Assembly (NCBI GenBank): GCA_015059405.1
Contig: SVAL01000012.1
Location: 1 to 64,000 of the forward strand
Direction of reading: 5' to 3'
DNA: 64,000 bases
Source of the DNA: Bacillota bacterium
GTDB taxonomy: Bacteria; Bacillota_I; Bacilli_A; RF39; UBA660
The position numbers were made by a program, and so were the translations under genes. Under the pieces are notes generated by a model, which saw only the letters and a program-made list of their open reading frames with translations, made no database searches and was not told where the DNA came from. This document shows positions 25,704 to 25,792 of this stretch, one piece after another. Positions within the stretch are counted from its first letter, which is position 1; each line of letters starts with the position of its first letter.

Positions 25704-25731
25704 TTGACACACTCCTCTATTATCTACTAAA

Positions 25732-25759
25732 ATCATACCCCCCCCCGGTCTTTTGTCAA
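25732..25759 (-). promoter_or_regulatory. Probable phase-variable promoter of the pilin-like gene (G9 tract in spacer)
   Basis: On the minus strand TTGACA (25754-25759) and TATGAT (25732-25737) are separated by 16 bases, nine of which are a G run directly before the -10 (25738-25746). Gain or loss of one G would move the spacer to 17 or 15 bases. Confidence 0.75.
25738..25746. repeat. Nine-base homopolymer G:C tract
   Basis: Nine consecutive C on the plus strand. In sequence this AT-rich I saw no comparable tract elsewhere in the window. Such tracts are prone to slippage in replication. Confidence 0.9.
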
Positions 25760-25792
25760 GATTTTACATTTTTTATTTTCTTCTTTACAAAT

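Follow-up and report, generated by a model that had tools for sequence, protein, structure and literature searches.

A poly-G promoter spacer repeated before a pilin repertoire in an uncultured Bacilli-type bacterium: a probable phase-variation switch

Introduction

The switching of surface genes by gain or loss of G residues is known mainly from pathogens. The closest described systems are the promoters of tp0126 and porA, in which a poly-G tract sets the spacing between the -35 and -10 boxes, with a maximum at 17 nt (PMC7864442). For porA of Neisseria meningitidis, a second source likewise places the poly-G between -35 and -10, and gives a spacing of 17 as optimal (PMC3639595). At tprL of Treponema pallidum, tract lengths in vivo range from 7 to 11, with a mode of 9 (PMC7864442). 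On the scale of entire genomes, the phasomes of Neisseria, Campylobacter and Helicobacter include many surface genes per genome that are controlled by homopolymers (PMC6321876, PMC5953494), and a homopolymer survey of 99 genomes, which concerned coding tracts, found poly-G rarely enriched (PMC2831843).

Here we describe a promoter of this kind in a 64-kb stretch of DNA (hereafter the window) from an uncultured bacterium, together with its counterparts in the same genome and in relatives. No description of the design in uncultured Bacilli or Clostridia was found in the open-access literature that we searched, which does not in itself prove novelty.

Results

The genome to which the window belongs is AT-rich and amounts to 1,544,594 bases (1.54 Mb) in 21 contigs, with a completeness of 78.6%. 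Read on the minus strand from 25759 to 25732, the promoter is TTGACA-AAAGACC-GGGGGGGGG-TATGAT, in which AAAGACC and GGGGGGGGG form a 16-nt spacer that has the homopolymer inside it (Table 1). The two boxes match 11 of 12 consensus positions, and the G9 tract is the sole run of at least six G or C in the whole 64-kb window. An earlier note had reported TTGACA and TATGAT 16 bases apart with nine consecutive G in AT-rich surroundings; the coordinates are exact, and the GC content of the window is 26.9%.

Table 1. Features of the poly-G promoter and its surroundings in the window
Feature	Coordinates	Strand	Remark
Upstream element AATGTAAAATC (AATGTAAAACC in most copies)	25760..25770	-	5' of -35; kept across copies
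-35 box TTGACA	25754..25759	-	Invariant in 16 paralogs
AAAGACC, spacer part without repeat	25747..25753	-	Invariant in 16/16 pilin copies; AAAGTCC at L018
G9 tract (+ strand: C9)	25738..25746	-	Proposed slippage site
-10 box TATGAT	25732..25737	-	
Ribosome-binding site AGAGGAG	25712..25718	-	
Type IV pilin-like protein, 486 aa	24243..25703	-	Variable C-terminal region; 26-gene paralogous family
Terminator-like stem-loop	25797..25818	-	3' of upstream aspS

The reading frame of the pilin gene could be extended to 497 aa by an ATG inside the -10 box. We consider this unlikely to be the true start because an ATG is missing at this point in sister promoters that read TAAGAT, and the start is therefore more likely the ATG that follows AGAGGAG. 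A translational switch through the ATG in the -10 box was discarded on the same grounds, and also because the tract lies upstream of that ATG. The stem-loop behind aspS, being terminator-like, would set the pilin gene apart from aspS read-through. In addition, an antisense promoter-like pair, TTGACA-18-TAAAAT (+ strand, 25704-25733), overlaps the pilin 5'UTR and has its predicted start at the C-run; of the 16 paralogs, 15 retain the TGTCAA that precedes the pilin ATG, and L022 has TGACAA.

The gene behind the promoter had been called pilin-like, and the prepilin N-terminal motif of the predicted protein lies above the cut-offs of both PF07963 (35.8 bits, cut-off 21.2, E 4.8e-9) and TIGR02532 (32.2 bits, cut-off 16.3). 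A domain-profile search returned no named family above cut-off for its C-terminus, no equivalog model reached cut-off for the protein, and the AlphaFold model (mean pLDDT 45) is too weak to help. A search with the N-terminal part yielded 26 strong pilin paralogs in the genome, 16 with a tract and 10 without, that have about 200 N-terminal residues in common followed by divergent C-termini; DUF285/PARCEL surface repeats occur in the C-terminus of one paralog (L094), and DUF285 in that of another (L112). Since the genome also encodes a PilB-type ATPase (C5:44148, E 1.5e-123) and one prepilin peptidase (C8:23247, E 4e-13), a type IV pilus in this organism appears plausible. Directly behind a pilin gene with an interrupted tract and a 17-nt spacer stands a Tad-type-like pilus cluster (L398:3082-9535; G000:C6:36081-42535) with TadE/F-like proteins, a MinD/CpaE-like ATPase and a CpaF-type ATPase. 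In one tract-controlled paralog (L107:1501-1773; G000:C8:46121), codon 91 is an in-frame TGA in place of the W of the others, and the frame is otherwise intact.

In the assembly, TTGACAAAAG(A/T)CC with a G run behind it has 18 exact matches and one near match. Two of these, at the start of contig C3 and the end of contig C9, represent one locus, which leaves 18 loci with nearly identical promoters. All runs of at least eight G in the assembly sit within the motif TTGACA-AAAG(A/T)CC-Gn. The tract is G9 at 13 loci, G8 at two, both 8 and 9 at one, and interrupted at two (GGGGGGGAGG, GGAGGGAGGG). Behind these promoters lie 16 pilin-like genes, a lipoprotein gene (L012) and one other gene (L018), so that the search for further G or C tracts before surface genes, which had been suggested in the earlier note, turned up a multi-locus repertoire, mostly of pilin-like genes, instead of a single gene.

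Spacer lengths elsewhere in the genome bear on the proposal that ten G would give the optimal 17-base spacer. Wherever one of the ten tract-less paralogs has a clear promoter (L096, L097, L108, L109, L111, L113 and L114), its spacer is 17 nt, as in TTGATA-17-TAAAAT, and 14 of the 21 TTGACA-TATAAT consensus promoters found genome-wide have the same length, which supports the proposal. G9 corresponds to a spacer of 16 nt and G8 to one of 15. A single interrupting A brings the spacer to exactly 17, as would be expected for a copy fixed in the favourable state. Measured in this way, the majority of assembled copies, including that of the window, are one G below the optimum, and would be low or off.

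Conservation of the promoter was compared with that of neighbouring sites in the 16 tract-bearing pilin paralogs. No difference in TTGACAAAAGACC occurs in any of the 120 pairs, with thirteen invariant bases in the promoter block; agreement is 92% between the -10 box and the ATG (5'UTR) and 56% at four-fold sites of the codons just downstream. The copies are judged to be old because their synonymous sites have strongly diverged, and the identity of the block beside four-fold sites at 56% indicates that selection, or gene conversion limited to the block, maintains promoter block and tract. Upstream of the -35 box, AATGTAAAAYC is conserved. Before one paralog without a tract (L113), both this upstream element and the start of the cassette, ATGTAAAACC-TTG, are retained. 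Since AAAGACC is invariant and the upstream element conserved, a regulator may act as well.

We then consider the design in relatives. The pattern TTGACA-N4-9-G8 is present in 84 of 386 family genomes and 44 of 395 class genomes, as against two and none, respectively, for the reversed control pattern. A TAnnnT directly 3' of the G run occurs in 91 of 124 distinct promoters of relatives, where about 5% would be expected by chance; because the pattern specified no -10 box, the placement of the tracts in promoter spacers is independently supported. In 85 of these 91 promoters the spacer measures 15-20, and the commonest direct spacers in the class-wide set are 18-19, not 17. Tract lengths range from 8 to 18. 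The genes that follow, judged by their N-termini, are mostly secreted, anchored or lipoproteins, with some transferases and regulators. Among the matches listed, the named genomes belong for the most part to uncultured Clostridia and Bacilli sampled from guts, and also include Treponema, Saccharibacteria, Microcystis and others. The organism of the window may itself be a gut inhabitant. Viral contigs gave ten loose pattern matches, none with the cassette of this organism.

Far outside the class, the poly-G promoter pattern was seen in Streptococcus sp. Marseille-Q0941 (L286), in Microcystis (L302 and L341) and in Rickettsiales (L277), and in the Streptococcus it stands before a gene with a surface-protein-like N-terminus. 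In two f7 species (L235 and L236), the region behind an orthologous G10 promoter is a long leader, conserved and with no ORF close by, which may be an RNA element.

The conservation of the promoter block in this genome could also arise if one transcription factor bound a co-regulated block, with the G tract as part of its operator and changes in length incidental. This would account for the invariance of TTGACAAAAGACC across the 16 paralogs, which extends to seven bases of the spacer that are dispensable for sigma-70, for the conserved AATGTAAAAYC, and for the equal length of orthologous tracts. We nevertheless regard it as unlikely, since other genera keep the tract, and its position relative to the -10 box, in an entirely different sequence context, both to its left and all around it, tract lengths spread over 8-18 G, the genes behind the promoters are unrelated, and one locus differs between G8 and G9.

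The last point comes from two contig ends. At the start of C3 (147 bases) and the end of C9 (148 bases), the flanks of 21 and 118 bp (139 bases) are identical, but the tract is eight G long on one contig and nine on the other. The 118-base flank holds the 3' end of the neighbouring gene, and its full length matches nowhere else in the assembly. Most simply, the two ends are the same locus with two tract lengths in one sample; the difference could reflect two strains, or an error of assembly or sequencing. Because one unique locus was assembled with both G8 and G9, tract length seems to vary within the sample. In a relative (G020), near-identical promoters have tracts of 9 to 14. Four orthologous tracts in sister species pairs are equal in length, and modal lengths are therefore not drifting fast; in another genome (G275), a contig-end overlap is identical, with G11 in both ends and no length difference. 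In several relatives, contigs (L403, L405, L407, L411, L418 and L421) stop exactly at the last G of the tract, as an assembler would when reads disagree on length.

If the tract were a fixed weak promoter element that does not switch, and the length differences were errors of assembly or sequencing, one would expect what is seen at 13 of the 16 pure loci, namely exactly nine G, which counts against switching, and also the equal lengths in sister species. The G8/G9 difference at a locus assembled on two contigs with 139 identical flanking bases, the G8 tracts of two further paralogs and the range of 9 to 14 G in G020 make this reading quite improbable. That the tract is a mere passenger of a recently spread repeat or recombination substrate for the exchange of pilin cassettes, as the promoter and about 600 bp of coding sequence common to the paralogs might suggest, is very improbable indeed, given that the copies are old (56% at synonymous sites) with an invariant promoter, that a lipoprotein gene and another gene have the same promoter, and that unrelated promoters elsewhere bear the tract.

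Discussion

We consider it very likely that the window contains a sigma-70-type promoter in which the spacing depends on the length of a slippage-prone G tract, in the manner of porA and tp0126, and that it belongs to a multi-locus repertoire. The earlier note had proposed a phase-variable promoter, and this proposal gains from the 17-nt spacers of tract-less paralogs and consensus promoters and from the presence of G8 and G9 at one unique locus. Further support comes from the number of such promoters, 18, and from the position of the tract, which is kept in differing promoters across family and class.

Slippage in replication would add or remove one G, so that expression would be high with G10 (17 nt), would fall with G9 (16 nt), one short of the optimum, and would be lower still with G8 (15 nt). 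One cassette is found before 18 genes, of which 16 are pilin-like, one encodes a lipoprotein and one is of another kind; any given cell would therefore produce a random selection of pilins whose C-terminal domains differ and are probably adhesive or antigenic. The surface fibres are thus probably switched at random by gaining or losing G, since there are 18 such promoters, one of them assembled with both eight and nine. The on and off states, the adhesive role, the switching rate and the dependence of expression on length are what we infer from the sequence.

With a simple DNA pattern, this design can be recognised in one genome out of five in the family of this organism. On balance, we favour the view that poly-G abutting the -10 box represents a widespread and unrecognised form of phase variation in uncultured Bacilli and Clostridia that are mostly gut-associated, some of which have many such promoters in one genome, that it originated or was retained in many lineages before different envelope families, and that it generates a random pilin repertoire in the present organism. 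If this is true, consensus genomes from metagenomes conceal which surface proteins are expressed.

The mechanism is as in porA and tp0126, and the interest lies in the number of loci, the pilin repertoire and the spread in uncultured bacteria. Like the promoter in the window, that of porA has a G homopolymer in its spacer; however, porA is one outer-membrane porin gene of a Gram-negative pathogen, whereas the present organism, an uncultured bacterium from a Bacilli-type lineage, has one cassette at 18 loci, mostly of pilins. The poly-G of tp0126 also lies between -35 and -10, although tp0126 and the tpr genes encode outer-membrane proteins of a spirochaete, and the tract of tprL overlaps the -10 region instead of the spacer. 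With the multi-locus phasomes this organism has in common that many surface genes of one genome are controlled by homopolymers. Those of Neisseria, Campylobacter and Helicobacter consist mostly of intragenic frameshift tracts, whereas the tracts described here all occupy one type of promoter spacer. Finally, the protein resembles type IV pilins (PF07963, TIGR02532) in its prepilin N-terminal motif, and the genome in its PilB-type ATPase and prepilin peptidase, but the family differs from them in its 26 paralogs and long, variable C-termini, some with DUF285/PARCEL repeats.
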